A stretch of DNA of 64,000 nucleotides, taken from contig CP087208.1 of NCBI GenBank assembly GCA_020912385.1, forward strand, positions 1 to 64,000, in the 5' to 3' direction. The translations under genes and the position numbers were made by a program. Positions within the stretch are counted from its first letter, which is position 1. Each line of letters begins with the position of its first letter. Below the pieces are notes generated by a model that made no database searches, was not told the origin of the DNA, and was given only the letters and a program-made list of their open reading frames with translations. Positions 1 through 17,263 of the stretch are shown piece by piece. The stretch is from Neofusicoccum parvum. Its lineage: Eukaryota > Ascomycota > Dothideomycetes > Botryosphaeriales > Botryosphaeriaceae.

Positions 1-123
1 CCTAACCCTAACCCTAACCCTAACCCTAACCCTAACCCTAACCCTAACCCTAACCCTAACCCTAACCCTAACCCTAACCCTAACCCTAACCCCTAACCCT
101 AACCCTAACCCTAACCCTAACCC
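1..123. repeat. Telomere repeat array (CCCTAA)n
   Basis: About twenty copies of CCCTAA read from base 1, with one CCCCTAA variant near position 90. The C-rich strand reads 5' to 3' from the end inward, as it does at a left chromosome end. The array stops at about 123, where degenerate subtelomeric sequence begins. The window therefore starts at, or inside, a true telomere rather than at an internal telomere-like patch. Confidence 0.97.
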
Positions 124-180
124 AAATTACTAACCCTCACCCTAATCTAAAATTACTAACCCTCACCCTAGTCTAAAATT
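124..180. repeat. Telomere-adjacent degenerate repeat (about 25 bp unit)
   Basis: Two or three copies of a unit of about 25 bp, roughly AAAATTACTAACCCTCACCC plus CTA. Each unit contains a mutated telomere hexamer. The same unit recurs at 2137-2270, at the outer edge of the second subtelomeric block, so it marks the telomere-side boundary of each block. Confidence 0.75.
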
Positions 181-869
181 ATCAACTCTTATTCTACTTT
201 TACTACCTCTATTTCTATTATATCTTTTACTTTCTTTCTATTTAATTTCTTCTCTTTTATACTCTTCTTCTTCTTCTTCTTCTACCTTCCTTTATTTAGT
301 TCTAGTTCTTCTAGTTCTTCTAAAATTCTACTTCTATTTCTAGTTCTAACTTTTAATTCTAGTTACTTCTACTTCTTTCTAGTTCTTCTAGTTCTTCTAG
401 TTCTTCTAATTTTATTTCTACTTCTACTTCTACTTCTACTTCTACTTCTACTTCTACTTCTACTTCTGGTTTTAACTCTAGTTTTAACTCTAGTTTTAAT
501 TCTAGTTCTAGCTTTAATTCTAGTTCTAGTTCTAGTTCTAGTTCTAGTTTTTTTTTAAAATCCATCTTTTACCTCTTCTATATATATTACTTAATATTCG
601 TATTTAATTCCACTCAATTCTATTTATATAGTAATACTTATCCAGCTATTATTATTTCTAAAATAAACTGGTACTTACTATTTATTTATTTGTTTATTTA
701 TTTATTCATTTATTCTTTTTAAATCCATCTTTCTTATTTATTTCTACCTACTCTTTTTCAACTATTACTTCTTTCTCTATTAGTTCTAAAATTTTACTAG
801 CTCTCTCTACCTACTAGCTAGTCCTATCCATCTATTTCCATTAGCTCTATTACTTTCCTACCCCTCTTC
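181..869. repeat. Pyrimidine-rich low-complexity block (TTCTAG/TTCTAC arrays)
   Basis: This block is dominated by C+T on the + strand, with runs of TTCTAG, TTCTAC and AGTTCTTCT at 300-560 and AT-rich sequence after that. It matches the block at about 2480-3128 in order and sequence, so it is the outer copy of a duplicated subtelomeric unit. Translating it gives only Glu/Leu/Lys or Leu/Val repeats, so it is not coding. Confidence 0.8.
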
Positions 870-1775
870 CTACTCCTCTATTAAGCTCTCCACCCTTCCT
901 GTCAGCCATAAAAACTCTCGAGCCAAGTTATTGCTCTCAAGCTCGTCCTTCCTCCATGCCTGTCCAAGATATCCTAGTAGTCTATCTTTATCTTCATCTC
1001 CATCTCCATCTCCATCTCCATCTCCATCCTCTACCGCTGCCGCCACTGCCGCCGCTACCACTCCTCCTACTACTTCCTTCTCTCCTAGCCGTAACAACCA
1101 CCTCTTCCACACCCTTTGATACCCGTGCTTGATCCCGTACAACGTACCAATCATCACCCCGAAGAACTGGCACTCGCTGCCCTGAACCTGCCGCCACCCC
1201 TGCCTACCATTACTCTCCCACCTGTTGCAGATTGCCTGTGGTACCCCGCAGCGAAAGCAGCCCGAGTACCTCTCAAACCTGATTCTTCCCTGCATCTCGC
1301 GCCTCTCCCCATCTGCCTGCCTACCCCGCTCTGTTGGACAGTGGCTAACACTGTGCTGGTCTTCCCTACCCGCTGCCTTGCACACTAAACACACCCTCTT
1401 CCACCTCTGCAGCTTTCTCTGAAGCAGTTCTGCATCTGTATACACCTATTATGTCTGCCTGGCCTGCCTTACCCTTATTCCTACCTGCTGCTGCTGCTGC
1501 TGCCTTCGAAACTCCTACCTGTCTAATTCTCTTTATTACGTACTCTGCTCTTCCTTCCAACTTCCCTGCCGACTTTCCTGCTGATTTTCCTGCTGTATTC
1601 TCTACTGCTCTTCTTGCTACGTCCTCTGCTGCTCTCTTTACTACTGCTCCTACTACTACTGCTGCTTTCTTTACTGCTCCCTTTGCTGCTACTGCTCCTA
1701 CTGCCACTACTGCTTTCTTTACTACTCCCTTTGCTGCGTCCTCTCCTGCTCTCTTTGCTGCTGCTGCTGCTCCCT

Positions 1776-1807
<32 letters not shown>

Positions 1808-2136
1808 AGTAGTGCTCCCTCTGCTGCTACTGCTACTGGTGCTCCCTCTACTGCTCCCTCTGCTACTCCCTCTACTACGTCCTCTCCTACTCCCTTTCCT
1901 ACTGTAGTTGCTGCTGCTCCCTCTGCTACATCCTCTCCTACTCCCTTTGCTATTACTGCTGCTAGTGCTTCCTCTACTACTAGTCCTGCTGCTATCCTAG
2001 CTGCTACTACTACCATCGTTGCCCTAAGCTGCTGCCAGTCCTACTACTATCCTGGCTACTACTACTACTGCTGCTGCCGCTGCTGCCGCCACTGCTGCCA
2101 CCGCCACTACCACCACTACCACTATATACATCACCC
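870..2136 (-). pseudogene. Truncated, mutated 3' copy of the telomere-linked helicase gene
   Basis: On the minus strand, positions 1445-870 encode 191 residues nearly identical to the C-terminal zinc-finger region of the intact helicase at 3129-8819. Shared motifs include CLVCKAAGREDQHS and YSGCFRCGVPQAICNRW. Upstream of this (1446-2136) is the CTG-rich stretch that corresponds to the Gln-rich region of the intact gene. The intact copy reads CAA CAG at the matching place, while this copy reads TAA TAG (1446-1451, minus strand), which is a RIP-type change. The RecQ motor and everything upstream of it are missing; the copy ends in telomere-like repeats at about 2137. It cannot make the helicase. 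Confidence 0.85.
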
Positions 2137-2275
2137 TCACTCTACTCAAAATTACTAACCCTCACCCTACTCAAAATTACTAACCCTTACCCTACTTAAA
2201 ATTGCTAACCCTCATCCTACTTAAAATTACTATCCCTCACCCTACTCTTACTAACTGTTAAAAACTCCTATATTA
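2137..2275. repeat. Internal copy of the telomere-adjacent repeat
   Basis: Five or so degenerate units resembling AATTACTAACCCTCACCC plus CTACTCAA, the same unit as at 124-180 beside the telomere. Its place between the two subtelomeric blocks suggests that this point was once the chromosome-end side of the inner block, and that the outer block was added later. Confidence 0.7.
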
Positions 2276-3128: not shown

Positions 3129-6100
3129 TTATCTCCCTACTCCTCTCTCCTCTATTAAGCTCTCCACCCTTCCTATCAGCCATAAAAACTCCCGAGCCAA
3201 GTTATTACTCTCGAGCTCGTCCTTCCTCCATACCTGTCTAAGATATCCTAGCAGTCTATCTTTATCTTCATCTCTATCCTCTACCGCCGCCGCCGCTACT
3301 CCCGCTCCTACTACTTCCTCTCCTAGCCGTAATAACCACCTCTTCCACACCGTCTTATACCCGTGCTTGATCCCGTATAATATACCAATCATCACCCCGA
3401 AGAACTGGCACTCGCTGCCATGAACCTGCCGCCACCCCTGCCTACCATTACTCTCCCACCTGTTGCAGATTGCCTGTGGTACCCCGCAGCGAAAGCAGCC
3501 CGAGTACCTCTCAAACCTGATTCTTCCCTGCATCTCGCGCCTCTCCCCATCCGCCTGCCTACCCCGCTCTGTTGGACAGTGGCTAACACTGTGCTGGTCT
3601 TCCCTGCCCGCTGCCTTGCACACCAAACACACCCCCTTCCACCTCTGCAGCTTTCTCTGAAGCAGTTCTGCATCCGCATACACCTGTTGTGTCTGCCTGG
3701 CCTGCCTTACCCTTATTCCTACCTGCTGCTGCTGCTGCCTTTGAAACTCCTGCCTATCTAATTCTCTTTGTTGCGCACTCTGCTCTTCCTCCTGCTGTCT
3801 TTCCTGCCGACTTTCCTGCCGACTTTCCCGCTGATTTTCCTGCTGCTTCTCTCTTTGCTGCTGTCGTATCCTCTGCTGCTGCTCTCTTTGCTGCTGATTT
3901 TCCTGCTGCCGCATCCTCTGCTGCTGCTCTCTTTGCTGCTGCTCCCTCCACTGCTGCCCCTGCTGCCGCTGCTGGTACTGGTCTACCCTCTGTTCTTCCT
4001 CTACCTCCCTGTCTACCTCTTCCACCTCATCTACCTCTTCCACCTCATCTACCTCCTCTACCTCCTCCTCCTCATTATTATCATCATTATCATCATCCGT
4101 GATCTCTCGCCTAGACTCCCTGCTCCTTCTACAAAAATCACACTTTTCTTCCCCCTCCTCCTGCCTGCATTCTATCCGCCTAAAACTACCATCTAAAAAC
4201 TCGTCCATCACCGTTCTCCTACACAGTCCCCCATCCAGATACTGCCTTACCAGCCGGTCATCGCTCTTCTCCCCCCCCTGAACCATCACTGCTCTGCTGG
4301 CCAGTCCATCCCTTCCCGCCCTGCCGCTCTCCTGCGCGTAGTCCAGAAAATCCCGCGGCTCATCCGTGTGGATGATGAGCCTGATGCCTGGAATGTCAAT
4401 CCCCATGCCCAGCGCGCTGGTGGCCACCACTACACGCACCACTCCCGCCTTGAAGTCCTCTAGCACCTCCTTCTTCCTAGCTTCTGACATCTTGCTGTAA
4501 AATGCCTCGCACTGGAACAGCCCTGCGTCCACCAAGCTCTTCACCCTGGTCACTGTGTTGCAGTAGATGACCACCTTTCCTTCCACCGTTGCCTGTAGTT
4601 CCTCTTCCACCATCTCTTCTATTTTCCTATTCTGCGCCTCCTTCCCTCCTTGTCTTCCTCGCCATCCTCCCCCTCTCCCTCCTCCCCCTCCTCTCCCTCC
4701 TCTCCCTCCTCTCCCTCCTCTCCCTCCTCTCCCTCCTCTCCCTCCTCCATTCTCCACCTCCACCTCCAACTCCACCCCCACCACCTGGTAGCTGATGTTT
4801 CTGCGGGTGGTGACCGCCCTGAACACCACCACCTCGGCCGCAGTCCAGCCCATCCTGCGCCACAGCTCCGCCTCTTTGCTGGGTGGCAGCGTCGCTGTGA
4901 GCAGAACCATCTGCGTTTCTGCCGCCATGAGCTTCCCCAGCTGCTGCAGCTGCTTGCGGAAGTCCACCTGGTCGTTCAGCACCACGTGGCACTCGTCGAT
5001 GATGATCCTGTCCAGCTGCCTCATCGCCCTGAGCCGGTTCAAAAACGTCATGAACTCGTCGCTCAGTGCTGCCTCTGGCGTGACCAGCACGATGGACTCC
5101 GCGTCTGGTGGCCGCCTCGCCTCCCATTCTGCACAGCTGATGCCCAGCTTGCTGCAGCGCTCTTTCATGTCCGCTCGCAGCGCGATGAGCGGTACCACCA
5201 CCACCGTTGTTCCTCCTGGCTCCGTCCAAGCCGGCAGCATGAACAAGATGCTTTTCCCAGCCCCAGTCGGCATCACTGCCACCACCGGGCTCACTCCAGC
5301 CTGGATGGCGGTCACCGCCTCTTCCTGGATGCTGCGGAACTCGGCTTCCTTTCCCATCAATCTTTGCAGCTGCTCCTTCACGTTGGCCCTCTTCAGCCTT
5401 GCCCAGCGGTCCAGCCGCTCCTCGTCAGCGTCATCCTCAAACGGGCAGCGCTTCCTCTTCCTGGAAGCAGCCGGTTCCTGGCTTTTAAATGCCGACTGGA
5501 AGCCCAAGAAGCGGTGCCAGTCGGTACTGGAAGCACGGAACAGCAGCCTCTTCTCCGCCACCACACCTGCCTGCTCCATCATCCCACGCGCGTAGATCAA
5601 GCCTGCAGTGTGGGAAGTATGTCCTGCCTGGGCGTCTGCAATGGCTGCTGCTGCCCGGTCTTCTCCCACCTCCATCTGCTGCTGCTCCTGCTCATTCCCA
5701 TTCTCTCCCCCCTCCTCGTCTACCCTGAACGCGCTGGAGCCGCGCATGAACCGCCTGCTGATGCCGATAGCGACGTCCCTGTACGCCCTGACCGTCAGCT
5801 CCTGGCCTAAGCCGATCCTGCTCTCCTTCTTCATCGCCTCCCTCATGCGCTCCGTCGTCCACCTCTTCTCCCCCGCCTCCGCCGGCCACATGTGGGCTGA
5901 GATCTGCTCGCTCCCACGTACTGCTGCCAGCATGCGCTGGTGGAATGGCAAGACTAGCCATAGATACCACACCACCAGCTCGCCCACCTCCCTGGGCAGA
6001 TACCTGTGGATCACCTTGACATCCCCGGACATGGCGTAGCCCTTGTGGTAGCGCGTGACGAACACAACCAGCCCATCCTCCACGAAGATGTTGCGGTGCC

Positions 6101-8502
6101 CTCCCTTGGCCGTATTGCTATGCCTGATGCTGAGAATCTCCGGCCCTCTTGCCGGCTGTCCACCGGTAATGTGCATCAGCAGTAGCAGCTTCTCCCTAAA
6201 CTCGGCCACCTGCGCTGCATATGCATCTACCGCCTGCCTGCTGATACCTGAGCTCGCGTTTTCCCTGGTGAACCTCTTCCTCGCAGCAGTGATTCCCATG
6301 ATCCTGTTGAACAACCAAGTGTTCCCGTCTGCTGGCAGCCTGGTGCGCTGGTCCTGCAGAAAGCTCCACCCTCTGCGCTCCTCAGCTGGGTTGTCCCTGA
6401 TGGAATGCCACGGCACTGCTGGCACGTCCATTTCCCTATGCTCTTTCTTGTGGCTGCTGTAGCCGCCAAACAGCAGCTCCTGGAGCAGCAGCTGGCGAGT
6501 GTCGTTCAGCAAGCCGTGCACCATGCCCCTGAACTTGGCCATGGTGAACTGGATGCCCTGGTACAGCAGCTGCTCCCGCCCATTCCATCCCACATGGCCC
6601 TTGGTGGTGGTGTTGTAGTGGATCTTCATCCCGTAAGTGCGCAGATCCAGTATCCACTGCATGGGACTGTGGCTGCCTCGGATCATGAAGCTGTCCATCA
6701 TCTTGGTCACCAGCTCTAAGCAGCTCATCTTCATCTGGCTGCGCTGGCTGCGCTGGCTGCGCTGGCTGCGCTGGCTGCGCTGGCTGCGCCCACTGCTGTC
6801 CCTGGCGCTGCCCTGGCCGCTGTTCCTGCTGCTGCCCTGGCCGCTGCTGGTCCTGCTGCTGGCGCTATCCTGGCCACTGCTGTCCTGGCCACTGCTGCTC
6901 TGGCCGGCGCTGCCCTGGCTGCTACTGCTCCTGCCGCCCTGGCTGCGCCCGCTGCGCCCACTGCTGTCCCTGGCGCTGCCCTGGCCGCTGTTCCTGCTGC
7001 TGTCCTGGCCACTGCTGCTCTGGCCGGCGCTGCCCTGGCCGGCGCTGCCCTGGCCGGCGCTGCTCCTGCCGCCCTGGCTGCTGCTGCTCCTGCCGCCCTG
7101 GCTGCTACTGCTGCTGCTACTGCTGCTGCCGCCAGCATCGCCTCCACCATAACCGCCAGCGCCGTCCTCCTCCTCCTCCTCCTCCTCCTCCTCCTCCTCC
7201 TCCTCCTCCTCCTTCTCAAAGTCCCATGCGCTGCCCCCACTGCTAAACTCCTCCCTACCATCCTCCTCCCCTTCTGCTGCTGCTGCTGCTGCTGCTGCTG
7301 GACCCGCCATCTCCAGCGCCTTCTGCACCACCATGAAGCGCCCCACCTTGATGATGGCCGACAGAATCGCCGTGTACAGACCCGGCTCCCTCCAGCCGGT
7401 GGGCGTGACCCCCTGCACCGCCAGAGCGCAGACCAGAGCGCTGTCGTACTCGCGCTGCGTGATCCTCTGGTTCAGCAGTTCAATGCAAAAGTCCAAGCAC
7501 GCCTTCTGGATCCCGGACAGCTTTGGTGGCAGCTGCTGCTGCTGCTGCTCTTCTAAACCAGCTCCTTCTTCTTCTTCATTATCATCATCATCATCACCAT
7601 CACTTCTTCCTCCCTCTTCTTCCTCGCTTTCTTCTTTATCTCTTCCTCCCCCTTTCCCTTCTTCTTGCTTCTTTACAGCTTGCTCTGCCTCCTCCATCAG
7701 CCTGGTGAATGCCCTGGACTGCCTGCGGGTGAACCTGTACTCTGGGCTTCTCCAGTCATGCTCCTGCTGCGTCCTGACGAAGAACATCAGCACCTGCTTC
7801 CACGCCCTCGACCTGTCCGCGACCGCGTTTTCCTCCATGTACGGCTGCAGCGGGTGGTACCGGTTCTGGTGCTTCTCCGTCCTCATCAGCTCCATGCGGA
7901 TGAATATGCCGACCTGCTGGGTCACCGCCTGCTGGCCGATGCGCGCAACCTCGTCCATGGCTTTCCAGATGGCCGCTGCCGCCGGCTCCTCCTCCTCCTC
8001 TGGCCTGTCCGGGTTGGCGTTGGGCTCCTCAACCGACGCTAGCAGATCGTCGCGGTCCAGCCGCGCCAGATACGGCAGCCACTGCGTCCTGTCCAGCCAC
8101 GGGCTGACCTCGTCCTTCTCTCCTTCCTCGATGGTGGCCCGGGCCCGCTTCTCCAGCTCCTCCCAGTTCTGGTTCGCCTTGTTCCACGCCTGCTGCCACA
8201 GCTGCTCCCCTCCTCCCTCCCCTCTCTCCCCTCCCTCCTGGGCGGGCTGCGCCTGGTCCTCCTGCTGCGCTTGCTCCTCTGGCTGGCACACTTCAAAGTA
8301 CTGCGAGCCGTGGAAGGTGGGGAAGAAGCGCTGGCAGTAGACCTGCTTTACCGCCTCTTGGAACCTCTTATTCAACCCCTCTTCCACCATCCTGCTCTGC
8401 CGGCCTTTGCCTCCTCCAATCGACCATCCGTGCTCGGTGCGCCAGTGCTCTTTCATCATCCTTTCATTCCTGCAGACGTACTGGCAGCTGCTACTATTAC
8501 TG

Positions 8503-8548
<46 letters not shown>

Positions 8549-8819
8549 GGTCCTTCTGGCACAGCAGCCCGTCCTTGAACAGTGGCAGCTCTGTGACGGG
8601 CCGTTGCACCCGGGCTGGCACTTCCAGCTCGCTCGAGAATGCAATCAAGCCATGCCAGCTTCTAACCTCACCACCGACCAGCTCCGCCTGCTTCCGGCCC
8701 ATCCGGTGGTGTTTCCCCCGCAGATGGCCTTCCACCTGGTCCGGCCAGACGGCGTGCCGGCACTCCCTGCAGATCGCGAGCCGGTATTCCGCCTGGTGAT
8801 AAAAGTACGCTGTCGCCAT
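3129..8819 (-). CDS. Telomere-linked RecQ-like helicase with OrsD-type zinc fingers and an embedded tyrosine-recombinase-like domain
   Basis: One open frame of 1896 aa, starting at ATG 8819. An N-terminal OrsD/DUF3505-type zinc-finger region (C17, C20, H32, H37) is followed by a second finger interrupted by poly-Ser (about 85-131). Residues 560-730 are Ser/Gly/Gln and poly-Glu repeats. Residues 880-1080 carry tyrosine-recombinase landmarks: R891 (QPARGPEIL), K926, R1011xxR1014 (VRAYRDVA) and H1067 to Y1076 (HTSHTAGLIYAR). The RecQ motor follows: Walker A TGAGKS (about 1185-1190), DECH (about 1274), motif VI QESGRAGRDG (about 1498), then a RecQ-type Cys cluster ending CDFC. The C terminus is Gln-rich with two further zinc motifs (from C1731). 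Telomere-linked helicases are known fungal subtelomeric genes; their cellular role is unsettled. Unlike its outer truncated copy, this frame has no stops. DNA recombination or telomere maintenance activity is inferred from motifs only. Confidence 0.9.
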
Positions 8820-9120
8820 TTGGTGCGCTAGCTAGTATTGTCTTGCTAATACTGAAAGTTGCTAGAGAGAATGATGCTGGTGTGAGAAAGCTCGTAAATG
8901 CTGCTGCTACTACTACTGCTACCGCCGCTGCTGCCGCCGCCGCCGCACGGATCACCCTTACCCCATCAAAAAACCTCAACCCTAACCCTACTCTTACCCC
9001 AAGTGGCTGGTTTTCTCACGACGCAGCGGTCGGATTTTAAGGTGGCTCATATAAAAAGTGGTCGCAGAGCCACGCTTGGAAATCTGACCGAGTGTAGACT
9101 CGATCCGAGCACCTCGCTCC

Positions 9121-9148
9121 AAATCCAGTGCGGTAAATCCAGTGCGGT
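9121..9148. repeat. Tandem 14-mer iterons upstream of helicase
   Basis: AAATCCAGTGCGGT occurs twice head to tail, and a third related copy, AAATCCAGCGCGGT, forms the left arm of the palindrome at 9189. In the relic at 38137-38412 two degenerate 14-mers sit at the matching place with the same 14-bp spacing. This layout resembles a binding site for an oligomeric protein; the binder is unknown. Confidence 0.55.
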
Positions 9149-9188: not shown

Positions 9189-9214
9189 AAATCCAGCGCG
9201 GTCGCGCTGGATTT
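9189..9214. promoter_or_regulatory. 26-bp near-perfect palindrome
   Basis: Twelve-base arms (AAATCCAGCGCG and its complement) flank a central GT. The same palindrome with 11-base arms occurs at 38371-38394 in the relic upstream region; there an arm base changes from A to G and its partner from T to C. It may be a protein-binding or recombination site; no function is shown. Confidence 0.5.
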
Positions 9215-9231
9215 GCGTCTTTCGGTTAGGG

Positions 9232-9647
9232 TTTACCTTGAGTGGGTACAAGGTAGGGGGAGAGAACAAGTGTGAACGAATACACGTGACTGAGCACTGC
9301 GTGCGAAGGCCGTGTTACTAATCAATGGTGTAGATTGATTATTGAAGTTGACCACGAAGGTCAAAGCTATACTAAGGAGTGTAGTTTATATACGTAGGAG
9401 AGTTCTATACAATCTATGCGCTCAATAGTCGTATCCTGCTCAGAGGCGCGTGGTCTTCTTGAGCGGTTGTCATGACCGAGCAGGATGGCTCAGTAGGTGG
9501 GATCCGCTCAGACAGCCTTGGCATTCTGAGCGGGTGGGTCTGGTTGAGCGCGAGGTCACGTGACCTCGGATCTTCATGACCCCGACTTCTGTTATTCCGG
9601 CGGGGCTGATCCCTATCCTCAACCACCGTGGAGGCTGCGCCGTAACA
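9232..9647 (-). repeat. 3' LTR of G1
   Basis: About 416 bp, matching 16848-17263 without visible differences. It ends at TAACA (TGTTA on the element strand). It contains the 18-bp palindrome CGAGGTCACGTGACCTCG at 9551-9568, about 180 bp upstream of the antisense gene start at 9746. Confidence 0.9.
9551..9568. promoter_or_regulatory. CACGTG palindrome in G1 LTR
   Basis: A perfect 18-bp palindrome, CGAGGTCACGTGACCTCG, centred on the E-box CACGTG. The same site is in the 5' LTR (17167-17184), and the core is kept in the diverged LTR at 21161-21575. Fungal bHLH factors such as Cbf1 bind TCACGTGA-type sites, so a role in LTR transcription is plausible but inferred. Confidence 0.5.
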
Positions 9648-12600
9648 CTATCCCCCCTTTTAAGGATCTTCGGCCCGAAGATTCTTCCGTGTCGCCTATT
9701 TCCTTGTGCGTCCTTTCCGACTTGCTTCCTTTCCGTAAGTCCATCATGTCCAAGCGAAAACGGGATACTACGGAGGAGCGGCGTCGTTTAGCGGCCCTCG
9801 TGGAGTCTCTCTCCTTCCCCGCGATTCGTCCCTGTTTTGATTGTGAACTGAACGGTAGGCCGTGCAAGGTTGCTCCGGAGCACGATCGTTGTGGTGCCTG
9901 TATTGCGAAGGGTACCACGATGTGCGACGCGAAGAAGATATCGCTTTCTGGAGGTCGGTAGTCCTTCTTCTGTCCGGGCTGCTTGCTTACGCTTTTTAGC
10001 CTTGAGTCTTCGTCGCGAGCAAGAGAAGTTGAAGGCCAAAGAGGCCGAGGCTCAGGAGAAGTTCCTGGCTTCTCTAGCTGATCTTGATAGGCTCCGCGCG
10101 GCTCAGGAGGAAGAGCGAGTGCGCTTACAGCGGGAGCAGGAGGAGATGCATCGTCGTCATGAGGAGGTCTTACGATGCCAGGAGAAAGAGCTAGGGACTG
10201 TTGCTGCTCGTTTGAAACGATTACGAGCCAACCAGCGTTTATTGGAAGAGCGTGGTTACAAGGCTCTTCTCGCTGAGTCTGGTAGTTTGGCTGCGTTGGA
10301 TGAGCGTGATCGTCGGGAGGCGGAGGAGCTGCTGGTTGCGCTGGCCGAGGATGAGGGGTACGTTCCTGACCCTGAGAGTTCTGAGGGTCCGTCCGCGTCA
10401 AAACGGCCACGTCACGAGGTGGTGGGTCCCGCTGTGCCGCAGTCGGCTGAGTCTGCCGGGTCTGCCGGTGAGCCCGTAACTGGTACGAAGTCTCCTCATT
10501 CGCCTGAGTTGGTGGATTCTGCCCGCTTGGTTCTTGATCCTGCGCTTCCTGAGGGTTTGCCGTCGTTTGTTTTCGAGGGCGACCTCGTTTCCGTGGGAGG
10601 TCAGGGTTCTGGCGATGGAACTCTGTGACCAGTTCTGGATGTATGTCGTCCTTGGGTATCCACTGGTTATCCTCATTCCCGTATCCTTCCCATTTGACCA
10701 GGTACTTAAGCTGATGACCGAACCGTTTGCAGTCTAGGATTTTCTCTACCGGGTACTGTTTTTCCTCGGCGTCCGGGTTCTCTGGTACAATTTCTTCTTG
10801 AGTTTCTGGGATGTTGGCGTTCTCGGGTGCTGGCTCGAGCAGTGAGACGTGGAAAGTGGAGTTCATCCTCGTGTTTGATAGTTTGAGTCGATAGGTGACT
10901 TCTCCGAGTTTCTCTTCAATCTTGAATGGGCCAATTTTTTTGAAATCCAATTTATCGTTTGGTCGTTTGGTCTTGATGTTTTTCCTGAGGAGATAGACCT
11001 TATCCCCCCTCTTCAGGTTCGGTGCCGCCTGGTGCCGTCTGTTGTAGTATTTGGACATCATGATTCGGACGTATTCGAGGTCAAGGCTGATAGCCTTGTG
11101 GAGTTCCTTCAGCTGCTCGGCTTTAAGGATACCACTTTGCGCTAGCTTTCTACTTGGGATCGTTTCCCTGTAGGCTTCCGGTTCGAACCCGTAGTTGGCG
11201 AAGAACGGTGACTCGTTCGTGGATTCCTGTTTGGAGCTGTTGTAAGCGAATTGGGCCATGGGTAATAGTTCTGCCCAGTTTTCCTGTGGGTAGTTGATAT
11301 AACAGCGGAGGTATTGTTCAAGAGTCCGGTTCATTCGTTCTGTTTGACCATCTGTTTGCGCGTGTGCTGTGGTAGCAAGCTTACTCTTCGTTCCTAGTTG
11401 GCGCATAACTGTTTGCCAGAATTCGGAGGCCATGAGCTTGTCTCTGTCCGACACCATTTCTTCCGGCATTCCGTGGTCCGCGAAGATGGTTCGGAGGAAC
11501 GTGTAGGCGAGCTGTTCTGCGTTGGATGCCTCGAGGTAGGGCAGGAAGTACGCATACTTCGTGAGTCGGTCGACGAAGACGAGAATCGAGTCGTACGAGA
11601 CTCCTGTAAGGGGATCTTTCGACCTGGGTAACTTGGTGACGAAGTCCAGTGTGATGGACTGCCATGGTCGCTTTGGTGCTTCCAGCGGCTGTAGGAGGCC
11701 ATAAGGTGCATGTGTCGCGGCCTTGCTTCTGATGCAAAGATCGCACTGCGAGACTACACGCTGTACGGTTTTCCTTAGTCCTGGGAAGTAGTAGTTCCTC
11801 GTGATTCTTTCTGTTGTCCTGTCGATGCCCTGATGTCCGTGTGCTGGGGCTTCGTGGATATCTTTTACCAGTGCTTCTCGTAACCGTGTTGGGACATAGA
11901 TGAGTCCTTTGAAGAGAAGCGTTCCTTCTCTGTCTCGAGCAATACGCGGATCGTCCTCAAGCGCTAAAAGTTCCTGCGCGAAGGGGTCCTGAGCGTATGC
12001 TTCTCGGATCTTCTGATGCCATGGGTTGGCTTCGATGCGTAGTATAGGTAGAGTCTGTCTGGTAAGGAGAAGCGATCCATCGCTATCCGCTGTAAAGATT
12101 GCAGGGTGCGGCTCGGTTTTTCCTTCCATATAATCCACTCTTCGGCTGAGCGCGTCAGCTGCAGCGTTATCAGATCCCTTTCTGTAGGTGATCTTGAAGT
12201 CATAGGAGGCCATTTCTTCTGACCAGCGAACCTGTCGTCGGTTCAATTCCTTGGTCGTGGTGAAGCGTGTGAGATTCTGATGATCACAGCGTACTACCAC
12301 CTGGTGGCTTGCTCCTTCGAGGTAATGCCTCCATTGCTTAAAAGCTGAGACAATGGCCAGAAGCTCCTTATCGTGAATGTCGTAGTTGAGCTCTGCCGGG
12401 GTGAACTTTCGTGAGTAGAACGCGACTGGGTGCCATCTGCCTTCTTCATCAGGCTGGCTGAGGCATGCTCCAAGGGCGAATCCTGACGCATCAGTTTCCA
12501 CTTCGGTGGGCTTGTCGGGATCGTATATCCCAAGCACTGGGGCTTCGCAAAACATCCGTTTGAGCGAATCAAATGCCCGTTGCTGATCGTCTTCCCATTT

Positions 12601-14874
12601 AAAGCCATGCTCCTTTCGCGTAAGCCTAGTTAAAGGTTCCGTGACTCCGGAGTAGTTCCAGATGAACTTCCTATAGAAGTTCGCGAATCCTAGGAAGGAC
12701 TGTACTTCCTTGATCGTCCTTGGTACTGGCCATTCTCTAATAGAATCCAGTTTCGAGTCGTCCATGCCGACGTGACCTGGGGTGATAATAAAGCCTAGGA
12801 ACTCTGTCCTCTGGACGTGCCATTCGCATTTCTCGGGTGCGATGGATAGGTTCTTTGCTTGGAGGGCTTCTAGGACCTTTCTAACATGCTTCTTGTGTTC
12901 CTCAAGGGTTTCCGAAAAGATGAGGATGTCGTCGAGATAAGCCATGCAGAAGATATCCAGGTATTCTCGCAGTGTGTCGTTGACGAGATTCTGGAATGTT
13001 GCTGGAGCGTTGGTAAGCCCAAATGGCATTACCGTGTACTCGTAGAGTCCTAGCCTCGTTCTAAAGGCTGTTTTCCATTCTTCTCCTTCTTTGATCCTAA
13101 CTAGATGGTATCCTTCCCGGAGGTCCAGCTTCGTAAAGTACTTTGCTTTCCTTAACTTGTCCTGGAGCTCGTCGATGCGAGGGAGAGGGTACCGGTTCTT
13201 GATCGTGATGTCGTTTAGCTGTCGGTAATCGACACATAGGCGTAGTTTGCCATTCTTTTTCGGGACAAAGAGGATTGGGTATCCGGCTGGTGACGTCGAA
13301 GGTCGGATATATCCTCGTTCAAGGTTCTTCTCGATATAGTCCCTGAGTGCTGTCATCTCCTTCTCTGATAAGGAGTAGATGGGTTTGTAGGCTGGCTTCG
13401 TGCCTGGTTTGAGTGGGATTTCGTGGTCCCACGGCTGATGCTTAGGCAAGTCCCCTTTTCCTCTTTCTTGGCAAACGGCCTTCAGATCCCAGTACTCGCT
13501 GGGTACCGTTTCCATTTCGGGTATCGGAGGATATCCATACGGGTTGTTCCATATTTCCAGACTGCCGTGTTGTCCCCTTACGATCCTCGCAGGATCGTCG
13601 CCTCCTATAGGAGCGGGAATGTCCTCATTCTTTAGCCTTTCTCTTTGGGCTTTGGCTAGTGCTCTTTGTTGCACCGTCGGTGAGGCTTTGATGTACATAA
13701 GGCAGACCTGATGCCTTTGGCGTCTCATGCGCTTGAATGCCTCTCCTGAGATTATCTGGACGTCGATCTGAGGTTCTAGGGCTGCTAATTGCTTTCGTAA
13801 AGCCTTACTTTTAGTCTTACGCCGCTTTCTCGTAGTCCTTCGTGTCGTGTGTTGTACTTCTAGTTCCTGAGAAGTGTCGGTCCTGGTTGGTCTTACTCCG
13901 CTCGAGGTGTTGCATTTTACCGAGGAGGCCTCGTTGCTATCCTGGTTCTGACTTATTCCGTCCTCGAGGTGGCCGTTGATGTTGCCGTCGCTGGGTCTTA
14001 TGCCATCCTGATTGACCGTACTAGTGGGGGTATCGTTTCGCTCAGTAGGGCTTATTCCTGCCGATGGGTTGCATTTTACCAAGGAGGCTTCGCTGCTTGC
14101 GTTGCGGTCCTGGTCCTGACTTGCACCACTGTCGGAGTTGCCTACACAGTTGCCACATTCAGGCCTTACACTGGCTACTTCCCGTGTTGATGCTGCTAGG
14201 AGTTTCCTTAGGGTGTCTAACAACCCGTTCTCTTTCTCCAGCCCTTGTTTTCGTAAGAGGTTTTCAAGGTCCTCTTGAAAGATGATGGAGTCTCCTCTTC
14301 CAAAGTCGAAGATTGGTTTCTGTGTCCTAATCCAGGGCATTCCTAGAATGATATCATGCCCGGGGACGCGTTGGACGTCGAGGGAAATCCGTTCCTGATG
14401 GTTCCCTATCTGGAGGGTTGCTTCCTCCGTTTCTATATTTACCCAGCCTTCTCCATAGGCTGCTTGGGAGCCATCAAACCCGCTAAGAGGGTAGGGCTCC
14501 TGTTTCTTATGGTAGGGGATGTTCATTTTCTGTACAAGCTCGTTGTGAATGAAGTTCCCGCATGATCCTGTATCGATCAGGATCCTGATAGACACTCCGT
14601 TAAGTGTCCCTTGTGTCTTGAATTGTTTCCATAGGTTTGGTCCGGTGAGAGCTTCCGTGTTCGAGGTGCGTGATACCATATTGAGGGACCTAGACTGCGG
14701 CCCCTGCTGTTGTCCCTTGGCTGCAGGGCCGTCTAGTTTTTTGACTGGTGCCTTTGGCCTTCCCAGAGTAGGAAGAGGTTGTTGCGAGTCCATCCGCTTG
14801 GTCCCCATCCCTCTATTTCCCATTCCTCGATAACTCGGTGCGTCCCATCTTGCTGTACGCGTACCGGAAACCAA
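9619..14874 (-). CDS. pol: G1 Pol polyprotein: protease, RT, RNase H, integrase, chromodomain
   Basis: The open frame spans 1751 codons; true translation should begin by -1 frameshift from gag at 14736-14742. Domains in order: aspartic protease (LIDTGSCGNF, about residue 100), reverse transcriptase with AYLDDILIF (about 646), RNase H (VETDASGFALGA), integrase with an H-H-C-C zinc finger and D, D, E residues (LDFV, VSDRD, QTERMN), then a C-terminal chromodomain (LVKWEGYGNEDNQWIPKDD, about 1362-1415). The chromodomain places it with chromoviruses, which target heterochromatin. The last 340 or so codons (10630-9619) are low-complexity and lie opposite the antisense gene, so the real Pol may end within or near the chromodomain tail even though no stop occurs. 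No inactivating mutation is seen. Confidence 0.92.
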   Translation of the reverse strand: MVSGTRTARWDAPSYRGMGNRGMGTKRMDSQQPLPTLGRPKAPVKKLDGPAAKGQQQGPQSRSLNMVSRTSNTEALTGPNLWKQFKTQGTLNGVSIRILIDTGSCGNFIHNELVQKMNIPYHKKQEPYPLSGFDGSQAAYGEGWVNIETEEATLQIGNHQERISLDVQRVPGHDIILGMPWIRTQKPIFDFGRGDSIIFQEDLENLLRKQGLEKENGLLDTLRKLLAASTREVASVRPECGNCVGNSDSGASQDQDRNASSEASLVKCNPSAGISPTERNDTPTSTVNQDGIRPSDGNINGHLEDGISQNQDSNEASSVKCNTSSGVRPTRTDTSQELEVQHTTRRTTRKRRKTKSKALRKQLAALEPQIDVQIISGEAFKRMRRQRHQVCLMYIKASPTVQQRALAKAQRERLKNEDIPAPIGGDDPARIVRGQHGSLEIWNNPYGYPPIPEMETVPSEYWDLKAVCQERGKGDLPKHQPWDHEIPLKPGTKPAYKPIYSLSEKEMTALRDYIEKNLERGYIRPSTSPAGYPILFVPKKNGKLRLCVDYRQLNDITIKNRYPLPRIDELQDKLRKAKYFTKLDLREGYHLVRIKEGEEWKTAFRTRLGLYEYTVMPFGLTNAPATFQNLVNDTLREYLDIFCMAYLDDILIFSETLEEHKKHVRKVLEALQAKNLSIAPEKCEWHVQRTEFLGFIITPGHVGMDDSKLDSIREWPVPRTIKEVQSFLGFANFYRKFIWNYSGVTEPLTRLTRKEHGFKWEDDQQRAFDSLKRMFCEAPVLGIYDPDKPTEVETDASGFALGACLSQPDEEGRWHPVAFYSRKFTPAELNYDIHDKELLAIVSAFKQWRHYLEGASHQVVVRCDHQNLTRFTTTKELNRRQVRWSEEMASYDFKITYRKGSDNAAADALSRRVDYMEGKTEPHPAIFTADSDGSLLLTRQTLPILRIEANPWHQKIREAYAQDPFAQELLALEDDPRIARDREGTLLFKGLIYVPTRLREALVKDIHEAPAHGHQGIDRTTERITRNYYFPGLRKTVQRVVSQCDLCIRSKAATHAPYGLLQPLEAPKRPWQSITLDFVTKLPRSKDPLTGVSYDSILVFVDRLTKYAYFLPYLEASNAEQLAYTFLRTIFADHGMPEEMVSDRDKLMASEFWQTVMRQLGTKSKLATTAHAQTDGQTERMNRTLEQYLRCYINYPQENWAELLPMAQFAYNSSKQESTNESPFFANYGFEPEAYRETIPSRKLAQSGILKAEQLKELHKAISLDLEYVRIMMSKYYNRRHQAAPNLKRGDKVYLLRKNIKTKRPNDKLDFKKIGPFKIEEKLGEVTYRLKLSNTRMNSTFHVSLLEPAPENANIPETQEEIVPENPDAEEKQYPVEKILDCKRFGHQLKYLVKWEGYGNEDNQWIPKDDIHPELVTEFHRQNPDLPRKRGRPRKQTTANPQEAQDQEPSGQNPPTQANEETSYQLRAHRQTRQTQPTAAQRDPPPRDVAVLTRTDPQNSQGQERTPHPRPAQPAAPPPPDDHAHPTQPNYQTQREEPCNHALPINAGWLVIVSNEQQQSLALSPGIVRPPHDDDASPPAPAVSALALPPEPRGAYQDQLEKPGTSPEPRPLWPSTSLARDEDSRLKSVSKQPGQKKDYRPPESDIFFASHIVVPFAIQAPQRSCSGATLHGLPFSSQSKQGRIAGKERDSTRAAKRRRSSVVSRFRLDMMDLRKGSKSERTHKEIGDTEESSGRRSLKGGIVLRRSLHGG
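9746..10628 (+). CDS. Antisense retrotransposon gene: Zn2Cys6-like coiled-coil protein (spliced)
   Basis: Two exons, 9746-9953 and 10000-10628, give 278 aa. The 46-bp intron begins GTCGGT and has a CTTAC branch-like site before TTTTTAG; only this splice joins the two open frames. The start MSKRKRDTTEERRRL is basic. Cysteines 30, 33, 40, 49, 52 and 60 have the spacing C-x2-C-x6-C-x8-C-x2-C-x7-C, which fits the Zn2Cys6 binuclear cluster rule. Residues 73-160 form a highly charged coiled coil; the C terminus is acidic and Pro/Ser rich. The gene lies inside retrotransposon G1 between the pol chromodomain and the 3' LTR, on the strand opposite to gag-pol, so its promoter would be in the 3' LTR. 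The opposite strand is also open here, but that translation is low-complexity. The spliced model is inferred. Confidence 0.65.
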
Positions 14875-16706
14875 TGGTTTTCATTCTTCTGACGCCTGTG
14901 CGTCCTGCACTGATGGTCGATGCATGAGATCCATGCAATCTGCCGATGCTTCTTATGCCGGGGGTTGAGGCGTTCGTCGTCTTCTGGGAGGATCTGGTGA
15001 CTCGGCCTTGGGATCTGTCGGAGGGCTTTCCACTTAAGGCCTGGAACAGCTATTTCCATACTAGGAAACATCCTTGCCCTTTCTTCCTCTTGGGCGAGTG
15101 TCCTCTGGGTCGCTAGATTATCTTCAGGAGTGACTTCGTCTGTCTCCGTGTGACGATCCTCATAGACACGCGTCTCCCACAGCTGATCCTCCTGTACCTG
15201 CCAGGTGACTAACGCGAGTCCTGGCTGGTTGTCTGGGATCCAAATGCCTTGCTCCGACTCGCCGTGGTGGAAGGGAATCTTAGCGATGATGCCGTGTTCC
15301 TCTACTTTCTCAAGGAGCCTATTAATAGCGCCTGCCAATGGGCTCTCCTCCACTTGTGCGAGGTCCTTTTCGTCGGAGCTGTCTTCTTCGGCTTCTGTAC
15401 TATCGTAGAATTCGCCATTCTCACTGTTGACAATCTCGTCGTCGTGCGGGAATGACTCGATGATATCGTCGAGGTCGAGTACTTCCTCGTTCCTGGTAAG
15501 CATGGCGATGCCTCTTGGCTTCTTCGGGTACCATCCTGTAGCGTCTTTGTCGCTTTGATGGGTTCGACAGTCGTCATTGAAGCAGGCCGTCCAGCTTAGC
15601 GCGTCGTGGTCCTCCTGGCGAGATACGGCCGATGCTTCGCGTTGAGCGCTTGAGGTCTGCTTCCCTTCTTTCCTACGAGGGTTCTGCGGGCACGTAGGCG
15701 AGAAATGCTTGTCGCTACCGCAGGTAATGCAGAGTCGATCCTTGTAGCGTTGCTTCTGTTCGTCTGTCCAGTTCGGATTCGGGCCTTTAGGCTTCTTGTT
15801 GTAGTTGTTCCGGCCCTTGTTATCCTTTTTCTTGTCCTGACGGTTGGCGGCGTCGAGAGCCATGGCGTCTCCTCCTTCCAGCGTGGTACGTTCGCGGCGT
15901 GGCTTGTTCGTGTTTGCTTGGTAGCCACCCTTCTTCTCGAACCACCTGTTGGTGCGCCTCCTATCCATATCGGTGGCTAGGCGGACTAGTTCCGAGAGCG
16001 TTTCGGGTTCGTCGTGGTAAGACATAGCCTCTTTGATTTCGTCCTTCAGGCCTCGGTAGTACAGCTGTCGGAGTGTGTAGTCTGAGTGCTCTCCGGCGAC
16101 GTAGGCTGCTTCCTGGAATTCAGCCGTGTAGTCGAGTACTGACTTCTTCTGCTGGATCCTGAAGAGGATTTGGTTGGCACGCTTGGCCTCGTCAATGGCG
16201 TTGAACGCTTCCTGGAGCTGCTTGGCGAAGGTCCTGTAGTCGGAGAAGATGGCCTGAGTCTGAGGCGACCATTGCCAGTGCGGCTTCTCCTGAGTCTCTC
16301 TCTTGTGGGGCCTGAACCACTTCTCTGCTGCTCCTCGGAGGAAGGTGCTAGCGTAGCGAACCTTATCTGCGTCGTTGCCGAACTGTCCTTTGGCGAAGTG
16401 TAGATAGTCCTCTAGCTGCATGAGGAAGCTTTGCGTCTTGGTACGCTCTCCATGGTAAAGGTCCGGCTTCGGCACCTTGACCTGGGTGGATGGTTTCTTT
16501 GCGGCATCTGGCCCGGTGGCCTGATCCTGTCGGTTCTTCAGGATGCGGTTCTCGTCTCGCAGCTCCTGGATCATCTGCATGAGTTCTCTCATGGTAGGCT
16601 CCGTTTGCTCCTGGTGAGCAGGCTGAGCGGCCTCTTGAGCCGGTGTCTGAGGAATCGCTAGACGATCCTGTCCTGCGCTAACGTCCTCCATATTGACCGT
16701 ACTCAT
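14733..16706 (-). CDS. gag: G1 Gag protein with zinc knuckle
   Basis: 657 aa from ATG 16706. It has an N-terminal coiled-coil segment (MRELMQMIQELRDENRILKN), a retrotransposon-gag core (FLMQLEDYLHFAKGQFGNDA and FLRGAAEKWF) and a CCHC zinc knuckle (CITCGSDKHFSPTC). The C-terminal third is acidic and of unknown role. The stop TAG (14733-14735) directly follows the heptamer A AAA AAC, and pol is open in the -1 frame with an overlap of about 140 bp, so Gag-Pol is made by -1 ribosomal frameshifting. The frame has no internal stops, unlike the related gag at 17264-19167. Confidence 0.92.
   Translation of the reverse strand: MSTVNMEDVSAGQDRLAIPQTPAQEAAQPAHQEQTEPTMRELMQMIQELRDENRILKNRQDQATGPDAAKKPSTQVKVPKPDLYHGERTKTQSFLMQLEDYLHFAKGQFGNDADKVRYASTFLRGAAEKWFRPHKRETQEKPHWQWSPQTQAIFSDYRTFAKQLQEAFNAIDEAKRANQILFRIQQKKSVLDYTAEFQEAAYVAGEHSDYTLRQLYYRGLKDEIKEAMSYHDEPETLSELVRLATDMDRRRTNRWFEKKGGYQANTNKPRRERTTLEGGDAMALDAANRQDKKKDNKGRNNYNKKPKGPNPNWTDEQKQRYKDRLCITCGSDKHFSPTCPQNPRRKEGKQTSSAQREASAVSRQEDHDALSWTACFNDDCRTHQSDKDATGWYPKKPRGIAMLTRNEEVLDLDDIIESFPHDDEIVNSENGEFYDSTEAEEDSSDEKDLAQVEESPLAGAINRLLEKVEEHGIIAKIPFHHGESEQGIWIPDNQPGLALVTWQVQEDQLWETRVYEDRHTETDEVTPEDNLATQRTLAQEEERARMFPSMEIAVPGLKWKALRQIPRPSHQILPEDDERLNPRHKKHRQIAWISCIDHQCRTHRRQKNENHWFPVRVQQDGTHRVIEEWEIEGWGPSGWTRNNLFLLWEGQRHQSKN
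14736..14742 (-). promoter_or_regulatory. -1 ribosomal frameshift slippery site in G1
   Basis: On the minus strand, gag codons read TCA AAA AAC TAG, so the canonical heptamer A AAA AAC is in the gag frame right before the stop codon. A one-base backward slip enters the pol frame (KKLDGPAAKG), which is open from here to the end of pol. Confidence 0.8.
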
Positions 16707-16840
16707 TGCTGTTTCCTAAACTCGTTAGGGGGTGATACCTTACCCGATGTTCTCTTACCCTTCCTTGCAAGGATGGTGGTCAAAGTGTAACGGCGGGCCT
16801 CTGCCTCCAAGGATCAAACACCAAAGAGGGTGGTAAGCCG

Positions 16841-17263
16841 TGTAGGGTTTACCTTGAGTGGGTACAAGGTAGGGGGAGAGAACAAGTGTGAACGAATACA
16901 CGTGACTGAGCACTGCGTGCGAAGGCCGTGTTACTAATCAATGGTGTAGATTGATTATTGAAGTTGACCACGAAGGTCAAAGCTATACTAAGGAGTGTAG
17001 TTTATATACGTAGGAGAGTTCTATACAATCTATGCGCTCAATAGTCGTATCCTGCTCAGAGGCGCGTGGTCTTCTTGAGCGGTTGTCATGACCGAGCAGG
17101 ATGGCTCAGTAGGTGGGATCCGCTCAGACAGCCTTGGCATTCTGAGCGGGTGGGTCTGGTTGAGCGCGAGGTCACGTGACCTCGGATCTTCATGACCCCG
17201 ACTTCTGTTATTCCGGCGGGGCTGATCCCTATCCTCAACCACCGTGGAGGCTGCGCCGTAACA
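16841..17263 (-). repeat. 5' LTR of G1
   Basis: 423 bp, from TGTAGGG to GTAACA on the + strand. On the element strand it carries a TATATAAA box within ACGTATATAAAC. The CACGTG palindrome is at 17167-17184. It abuts the truncated gag of the older element G2 at 17264. Confidence 0.9.

Follow-up and report, generated by a model that had tools for sequence, protein, structure and literature searches.

The first 64,000 nucleotides of contig CP087208.1 of the ascomycete Neofusicoccum parvum (assembly GCA_020912385.1), which we call the window, begin in telomere repeats and carry a gene for a telomere-linked helicase (TLH). We consider it probable, at roughly 70%, that this gene supplies the enzyme of a DNA mobile element with a single site-specific end, the end of the chromosome serving as the other. 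The protein has a predicted tyrosine recombinase (YR) fold with a conserved active site. The element has a precise inner terminus, found in a single orientation and joined to unrelated flanks, usually at an AG in the target; the DNA distal to the target site is lost, and there are signs of recent activity. The recombinase would make the joint, the joint would be made by copying, and the helicase would serve in that copying.

A predicted recombinase fold in a telomere-linked helicase

The TLH gene is a single uninterrupted open reading frame (ORF) of 1896 amino acids (3129..8819, minus strand) that is read toward the telomere. At its N terminus is an OrsD (C2H2 zinc-finger) region, residues 6-131 (8427..8804, minus strand; Pfam PF12013, E 8.1e-18), and further on a RecQ-type superfamily 2 (SF2) helicase, residues 1163-1505 (4305..5333, minus strand; Pfam PF00270 and PF00271, with DEAD at residues 1163-1315 and Helicase_C at residues 1402-1505). 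The best solved relatives of the helicase part are RecQ-family chains. Between the zinc fingers and the RecQ motor, in the same polypeptide, lies the predicted YR catalytic fold, residues ~736-1107 (5499..6614, minus strand). Pfam gave no match over residues 690-1140, even at E<=10; the YR region had no match in Pfam, NCBIfam or PHROGs scans, and profile searches of solved structures with alignments A2 and A3 returned chance-level matches only. Viral and prokaryote contigs, when searched, yielded no relative. Across the whole ORF, the Pfam scan listed no Rep/HUH, other transposase or reverse transcriptase domain.

An AF2 model of residues 690-1140 (pLDDT 78.8, pTM 0.77) was placed by VIA-align among recombinases, topoisomerases or protelomerases, which filled all of ranks 1-38. 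A second model gave proteins of the same three kinds at ranks 1-15 with the same second-look aligner, so that the recombinase fold was predicted in two models; no Crypton or Starship captain structure was among the structural matches listed. We assign the YR fold because of the second-look aligner matches together with residue conservation, and on its predicted fold and active site the TLH protein is placed in the YR superfamily.

An earlier note on this sequence had read an R-K-(H/R)xxR-(H/W)-Y signature here, and every residue that it quoted lies where it said. They are the box I arginine R891 in GGQPARGPEI (6147..6149), the beta-hairpin lysine K926 in RYHKGYA (6042..6044), the box II pair R1011 and R1014 in LTVRAYRDVA (R1014 at 5778..5780), and H1067 (5619..5621) and the proposed nucleophile Y1076 (5592..5594) in GHTSHTAGLIYAR, all on the minus strand; H1067 and Y1076 are indeed nine residues apart. 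Among close homologues (the best 120 of 304 matches to TLH residues 690-1180), R891, K926 and R1014 are present in 120/120, H1067 in 118/119 and Y1076 in 119/119. A further protein search was read at the best 120 of its 302 matches, and proteins named Neofusicoccum parvum match the YR domain at 89-97% identity. In a wider set of 252 rows from 241 proteins, with gaps excluded, the counts in the same order are 239/241, 239/240, 202/208, 185/190 and 186/186.

Because the close homologues have many residues in common besides the catalytic set, we used a more distant alignment, A5 (37 sequences, 24% mean column identity, 373 domain columns). There R891, K926, R1014 and Y1076 are kept in 37/37 sequences and are among just 15 invariant columns of the 373, while H1067 is kept in 36/37. 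The chance that all five named positions would fall within the 33 columns conserved at at least 94% is 4e-6 in this alignment. Hence, the catalytic residues outlast the sequence around them. The HxxR part of the signature did not hold up: R1011 is replaced by A in 72, Q in 36 and P in 5 of the 120 close homologues, ranks 197 of 373 in A5, and in 209 occupied rows is mainly A, Q, S or P, just 8 rows having R and 4 having H. It does not belong to a conserved active site. The acidic, Gln-rich insertion that the note described between box II and H1067 is real, and is modelled with low confidence (model residues 340-352).

Among more distant homologues, P0282 and P0283 of F. oxysporum have OrsD and helicase domains and are taken for telomere-linked helicases. 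P0282 shares 24% identity with the window's domain and 25% with the A5 reference, P0238, and keeps all five residues with the H-Y spacing of nine. Other homologues have OrsD and the YR region with the helicase undetected, an example being P0253 of Talaromyces marneffei. In P0273 of Pyrenophora tritici-repentis, OrsD and part of the pre-YR region are joined to a hAT dimerisation domain, probably because a transposon landed in a TLH.

Could such a fold have been domesticated for DNA binding or a topoisomerase-like role at telomere ends, with no integrase function? The structural likeness does extend to topoisomerases, and most copies lie at chromosome ends. We nevertheless think this very unlikely, since the full R-K-R-H-Y set is retained at about 25% identity and recent copies interrupt other sequences.

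Copies at contig ends share one precise inner terminus

The assembly has 18 contigs (44.0 Mb), whose left and right ends we denote C1L, C1R and so on. The YR domain gave 71 matches or match parts in it. A TLH copy adjoins 34/36 contig ends; these terminal copies always read toward the end and are 97-100% identical in the YR domain. The two ends that have no copy, C16R and C17R, do not finish in telomere repeats. On the outer side of the TLH copies we found telomere wherever this side was read, telomere repeats having been checked on 16/16 TLH-bearing right ends and 7/18 left ends. In-frame stops, mostly TAG, occur in many TLH copies in the assembly and fit C-to-T mutation of CAG, as in repeat-induced point mutation (RIP).

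When upstream regions from other ends were aligned with that of the window, identity stopped at a single place, ~0.4 kb upstream of the TLH start codon. The final conserved bases of the element are CGGTTAG (9223..9229, plus strand), where the junction lies; TAG is common to the element and the window target. Within the inner terminus are two direct half-sites, AAATCCAGTGCGGT (9121..9148, plus strand), and a palindrome, AAATCCAGCGCGGTCGCGCTGGATTT (9189..9214), with 12-bp arms and a 2-bp centre. A 28-mer of the terminus, GCGCGGTCGCGCTGGATTTGCGTCTTTC, which detects exact subfamily A termini only, occurs 37 times in the assembly against 0 for the control. Its 19 plus-strand occurrences are all at left ends and its 18 minus-strand occurrences all at right ends, so that 37/37 have one orientation, and all lie within about 25 kb of a contig end. 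We read all 37 junctions, 35 of them at length, and found 31 distinct flanks in total. The 35 are 99.8% identical over the 160 bp before the junction and 25.9% identical on average, which is chance level, over the 58 bp after it. All end at GTTAG apart from that at C7R (34/35), which ends one base earlier, at GGTTA/AGG (slashes mark junctions), in a tandem array.

Repeats of this kind could be ordinary subtelomeric sequence spread by homologous recombination and break-induced replication, like Y' elements, the YR fold being a passenger. Some ends with common junctions and a tandem truncated unit in the window would suit that explanation, and so would a published account in which the TLH-like repeats of Colletotrichum higginsianum serve as sites for homologous recombination (PMC5576322). 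However, homologous recombination would bring flanks along and stop anywhere; instead, there is one base-precise end, 31 flanks and a rule for the bases at the joint. Homology running past the element into the flank, as with Y'-type spread, is not found, given the 25.9% mean identity just beyond the junction. This explanation is already contradicted for the inner junctions, can account for secondary duplications, and is in our judgement unlikely.

The half-sites differ in the other subfamilies: AAATCGACCGCGGT in B, GCTGTGCGGT in C and AAATCACGCCGCGGT in D. Subfamily B, seen in one copy, and subfamily C have palindromes that differ in step with their half-sites and are still perfect, and this covariation points to a site that is recognised by a protein. 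In subfamilies A, B and C the palindrome stands 15-19 nt before the terminus. That placement, together with the precise single end, would also be expected if a Helitron-like or other transposase moved the element in trans, with the hairpin as terminator. No Rep/HUH or other transposase domain is listed for the ORF by Pfam, though, and all 37 exact termini lie in one orientation at ends, which is not how Helitrons are known to behave. Since a second YR family also has its own terminus by its own gene (below), we hold a transposase in trans to be highly improbable.

A shorter motif, CTTTCGGTTAGG, has 84 occurrences against 7 control matches; some are internal or reversed (C3:3239681, C10:184272, C12:48928 and C12:2084944). 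Short tandem arrays of 20-27 bp units with CTTTCGGTTAGG or GGTTAGGATACCTTC stand beside element ends (C2:15454-15505, C17:15169-15220, C7R, C10R, C5R and C12R) and look terminus-derived. At the left end of C18 (L047), subfamily C termini are in tandem, and one element end meets a like element at TTTAG/GCC, 132 bp into the latter. A telomere-like segment upstream of the TLH gene (8950..8999, plus strand) was considered as the inner boundary and rejected: it is inside the element, is present in all ten of the other left-end copies that were aligned, and the true end is at 9229. Insertion into telomere repeats was likewise rejected, as the inner flanks are not telomeric.

A second YR family, with no helicase detected, has its own terminus

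A second family, with 41% identity to the window's domain, has three copies at positions further into the contigs (C9:36845-38011, C6:2572980-2574146 and C12:2150552-2151718). The open frame of the C9 copy is 897 amino acids long, begins with an OrsD-like region, includes the YR domain and closes soon past it. For two copies, 6.5 and 4.7 kb of outward DNA were read and showed no helicase. The inner ends are again precise: all three finish at ..GGTGGATTTGAGCATATATCTTAG/ against three different flanks. Between the C9 and C12 copies, the inner side from the YR domain to the terminus is 99.7% identical over 1735 bp, and the DNA beyond the YR domain is 99.9% identical over 3617 bp. Because this terminus adjoins a YR gene with no helicase detected, it would be the YR, not the helicase, that defines the end. 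Outside the copies are long terminal repeat (LTR) pieces and further CGGTTAG-type junctions.

Targets are usually cut next to AG, and their distal part is lost

Because many flanks are repeats, uninterrupted copies of the targets could be found, and we obtained them for 23/31 flanks. AG stands just before the junction in 20 of the 23 (p = 1e-21 at a frequency of 1/16; 7e-20 at the local frequency), with duplicated junctions entered once. This AG rule was formed on 12 sites, of which 10 fit; later sites fit in 4/4 and then 6/7 cases, C2L being the misfit, so that 10/11 sites unseen when the rule was formed agree with it. Identity between target and flank is 79% at C13L, 81-89% at C6L, 87% at C14L and C4L, 89% at C9L, 91% at C11L, 92% at C3R_term and C2R, 96% at C15R, 97% at C11R and 99-100% at the rest. 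The base after the junction is G in 29/31 distinct flanks.

DNA distal to the target site is lost. Retrotransposons and other TLH copies are among the targets that were cut. At C5L, the cut falls within the YR domain of an older TLH, whose distal remainder is gone there. In the window, the element severed the 5' LTR of a Gypsy retrotransposon (9227..9647, plus strand). The matching part of the 3' LTR (16843..17263, plus strand) is identical at 421/421 positions and preserves the intact target, ..GCCGTG/TAG/GGTTTACC. The retrotransposon (9227-17263) is itself a very young insertion, its LTRs being identical over these 421 bp. As the severed LTR is 100% identical to its partner, the arrival of the TLH copy was recent. 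We conclude that this copy arrived after a recent retrotransposon insertion.

Short AG(G) sequence common to both sides of the joint, along with loss of distal DNA, would also follow if the element, as a free linear molecule having one fixed end, were captured at broken ends by microhomology-mediated end joining, AG(G) being the microhomology. The inner end, moreover, often resembles the telomere unit, GGTTAGGG. Yet a linear telomere-ended molecule would give variable repeats and trimming, whereas 34/35 junctions end at GTTAG; and the joint change of half-sites and palindrome among subfamilies A, B and C is a pointer to recognition of the site. We consider end joining an unlikely explanation.

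Weighing a mobile element with one site-specific end

The earlier note had suggested that the gene may be, or come from, an element that is mobile or sits at telomere ends and brings its own strand-transfer enzyme. This is supported by the precise terminus, the single orientation (37/37), the 31 flanks and the 23 uninterrupted targets. The pattern is not that of a two-ended insertion: the element is a cap with one site-specific end.

A number of observations weigh against this account. Plain Foldseek gave weak matches to the first model (best E 0.089) and, for the second, no recombinase among the 50 of 235 matches listed; box II has no conserved H, R or K three residues before its arginine, a usual YR feature. 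Some TLH pieces are interior and face the opposite way (C15:1552433, C8:16737, C16:73074 and C12:93896), and 2/12 further copies had no terminus motif within the piece read. In the single copy of subfamily D, the inverted repeat is imperfect and mismatched to the direct half-sites. Certain repeat families supply several of the distinct flanks, and some junctions are held in common (C2L/C17L/C10, C9int/C8R, C3R/C5, C8L/C14R and C10R/C12R), which we take as secondary duplications. The AG rule has exceptions at C1L (AC), C2L (CT) and C4L (GG, read in a copy of 87% identity), and no usable target copy was found for 8/31 flanks: C10L, C15L, C9R, C10R, C5R, C1R, C18R (no other copy found) and C7R (tandem array). 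For a tyrosine recombinase, a common core of 2-3 bp is short, and microhomology repair could also have produced the shared AG. Finally, reciprocal crossover followed by segregation may have been at work in place of copying.

For the one-ended mobile element, we picture the following steps. The YR would recognise the inner terminus through its direct half-sites and palindrome, cut at GGTT-AG, and join the terminus to an AG(G) site elsewhere. Sequence distal to that site would be lost and replaced by the element plus its telomere. The RecQ motor would most likely unwind the donor end, which would be copied through the telomere and not swapped reciprocally. The simplest reaction would need two cuts, a site-specific one at the terminus and another at AG(G), and would turn the end of the donor, telomere included, into that of the recipient. 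With near-identical copies at 34 ends, copying seems a better fit than reciprocal exchange, and the presence of a helicase in the protein itself would go well with it. We class the element as a YR-helicase element that caps chromosome ends. Taking the idea further, we offer tentatively, at somewhat less than even odds, a one-ended class of DNA transposon in which a YR-RecQ protein makes its cuts at a single terminus and at an AG(G) target and then drives copying of the whole donor end, telomere included ("copy and cap"). Under "copy and cap", the chromosome ends themselves would be the mobile unit, a notion that we hold just as provisionally.

Other features at the end of the window

The outer end consists of telomere (CCCTAA)n and 26-bp telomere-like repeats (1..181, plus strand; CCCTAA repeats at 1-145). 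Next to it is a truncated distal TLH unit (182..2132, minus strand), comprising the C-terminal part and 3' region, whose best stretch is 84% identical to the complete unit. Its C-terminal finger region and 3' part are retained, and the inner terminus is missing. An array of 25-bp telomere-like repeats (2133..2247, plus strand) separates it from the complete unit. Ends with the YR domain at ~7.6 kb, not 5.4 kb, seem to carry one extra truncated unit.

Comparison with known elements

The window's gene belongs with the telomere-linked helicases, being a RecQ-type helicase gene that adjoins telomeres and has OrsD. A 2009 M. oryzae paper reportedly describes a TLH-specific motif. Known TLHs (Magnaporthe, Fusarium, Ustilago and Metarhizium) are likewise RecQ-type helicases at chromosome ends (PMC12857005), with OrsD/DUF3505 where reported. 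In C. higginsianum, a RecQ and DUF3505 repeat is described at all 24 subtelomeres, in one orientation and with the telomere parted from unique sequence, and the repeats are discussed there as sites of homologous recombination (passages of PMC5576322). Unlike our account, the passages on these genes in PMC5576322 and PMC12857005 mention neither a YR domain nor an inner terminus, and neither a target rule nor recombinase-driven transposition. In open-licence literature, we found no paper with both "telomere-linked helicase" and "tyrosine recombinase", and no title or abstract reporting a YR in a telomere-linked helicase.

Starships carry a recombinase gene just inside one terminus, read away from that terminus. 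The TLH recombinase gene likewise lies directly inside one terminus and reads away from the inner end. Unlike a Starship, the TLH element has no DUF3435 (the captain domain; none detected by Pfam at E<=10), no second terminus was found for it, and its exact termini are only near ends. Starships occur in Pezizomycotina (PMC12289983). The TLH protein family is seen in several Pezizomycotina classes.

Cryptons are eukaryotic DNA elements that use a YR. Unlike a Crypton, the TLH element has a helicase and OrsD and showed no second end or flanking direct repeat; two-ended insertion with short direct repeats was not seen, the 37/37 exact termini lying near ends in one orientation. Helitrons fuse a strand-transfer enzyme to a helicase, have a hairpin near one end, and insert internally in both orientations. 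Their pairing is HUH with Pif1, that of the TLH is YR with RecQ; no HUH Rep fused to a Pif1-type helicase is listed for the ORF, whose helicase is RecQ-type. Nor does Pfam list for it the reverse transcriptase of telomeric retrotransposons such as MoTeR and FoTeR. Y' elements spread by homologous recombination, and we know of no recombinase or precise inner terminus in them. Like the TLH element, the Y' elements of yeast are helicase-coding repeats at chromosome ends (as outlined in PMC4522978). Telomere-linked helicases of F. oxysporum often adjoin FoTeR retrotransposons (PMC12857005).

Endogenous nimaviruses have a YR with a C2H2 zinc finger and a SAM-like domain and occupy telomeric sites, as described in part of PMC10871703. 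Telomere-targeting C2H2 YRs of this kind indicate that enzymes of this sort can have a link with chromosome ends. The nimavirus case differs in that a virus genome is inserted into (TAACC)n with repeats on both sides, and that part of the account mentions no helicase fusion.

Implications

Telomere-linked helicases have been noted at fungal chromosome ends for more than 20 years without a settled job. A mobile element with one site-specific end predicts one terminus, one target core and one catalytic tyrosine. If TLHs do act as recombinase-helicases and replace the ends of chromosomes at AGG sites, the subtelomeres of many fungi would be shaped by a specific enzyme and not just by chance recombination, and there would be a DNA-only route for capping and spreading chromosome ends. 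It may explain how the ends of fungal chromosomes spread and change.

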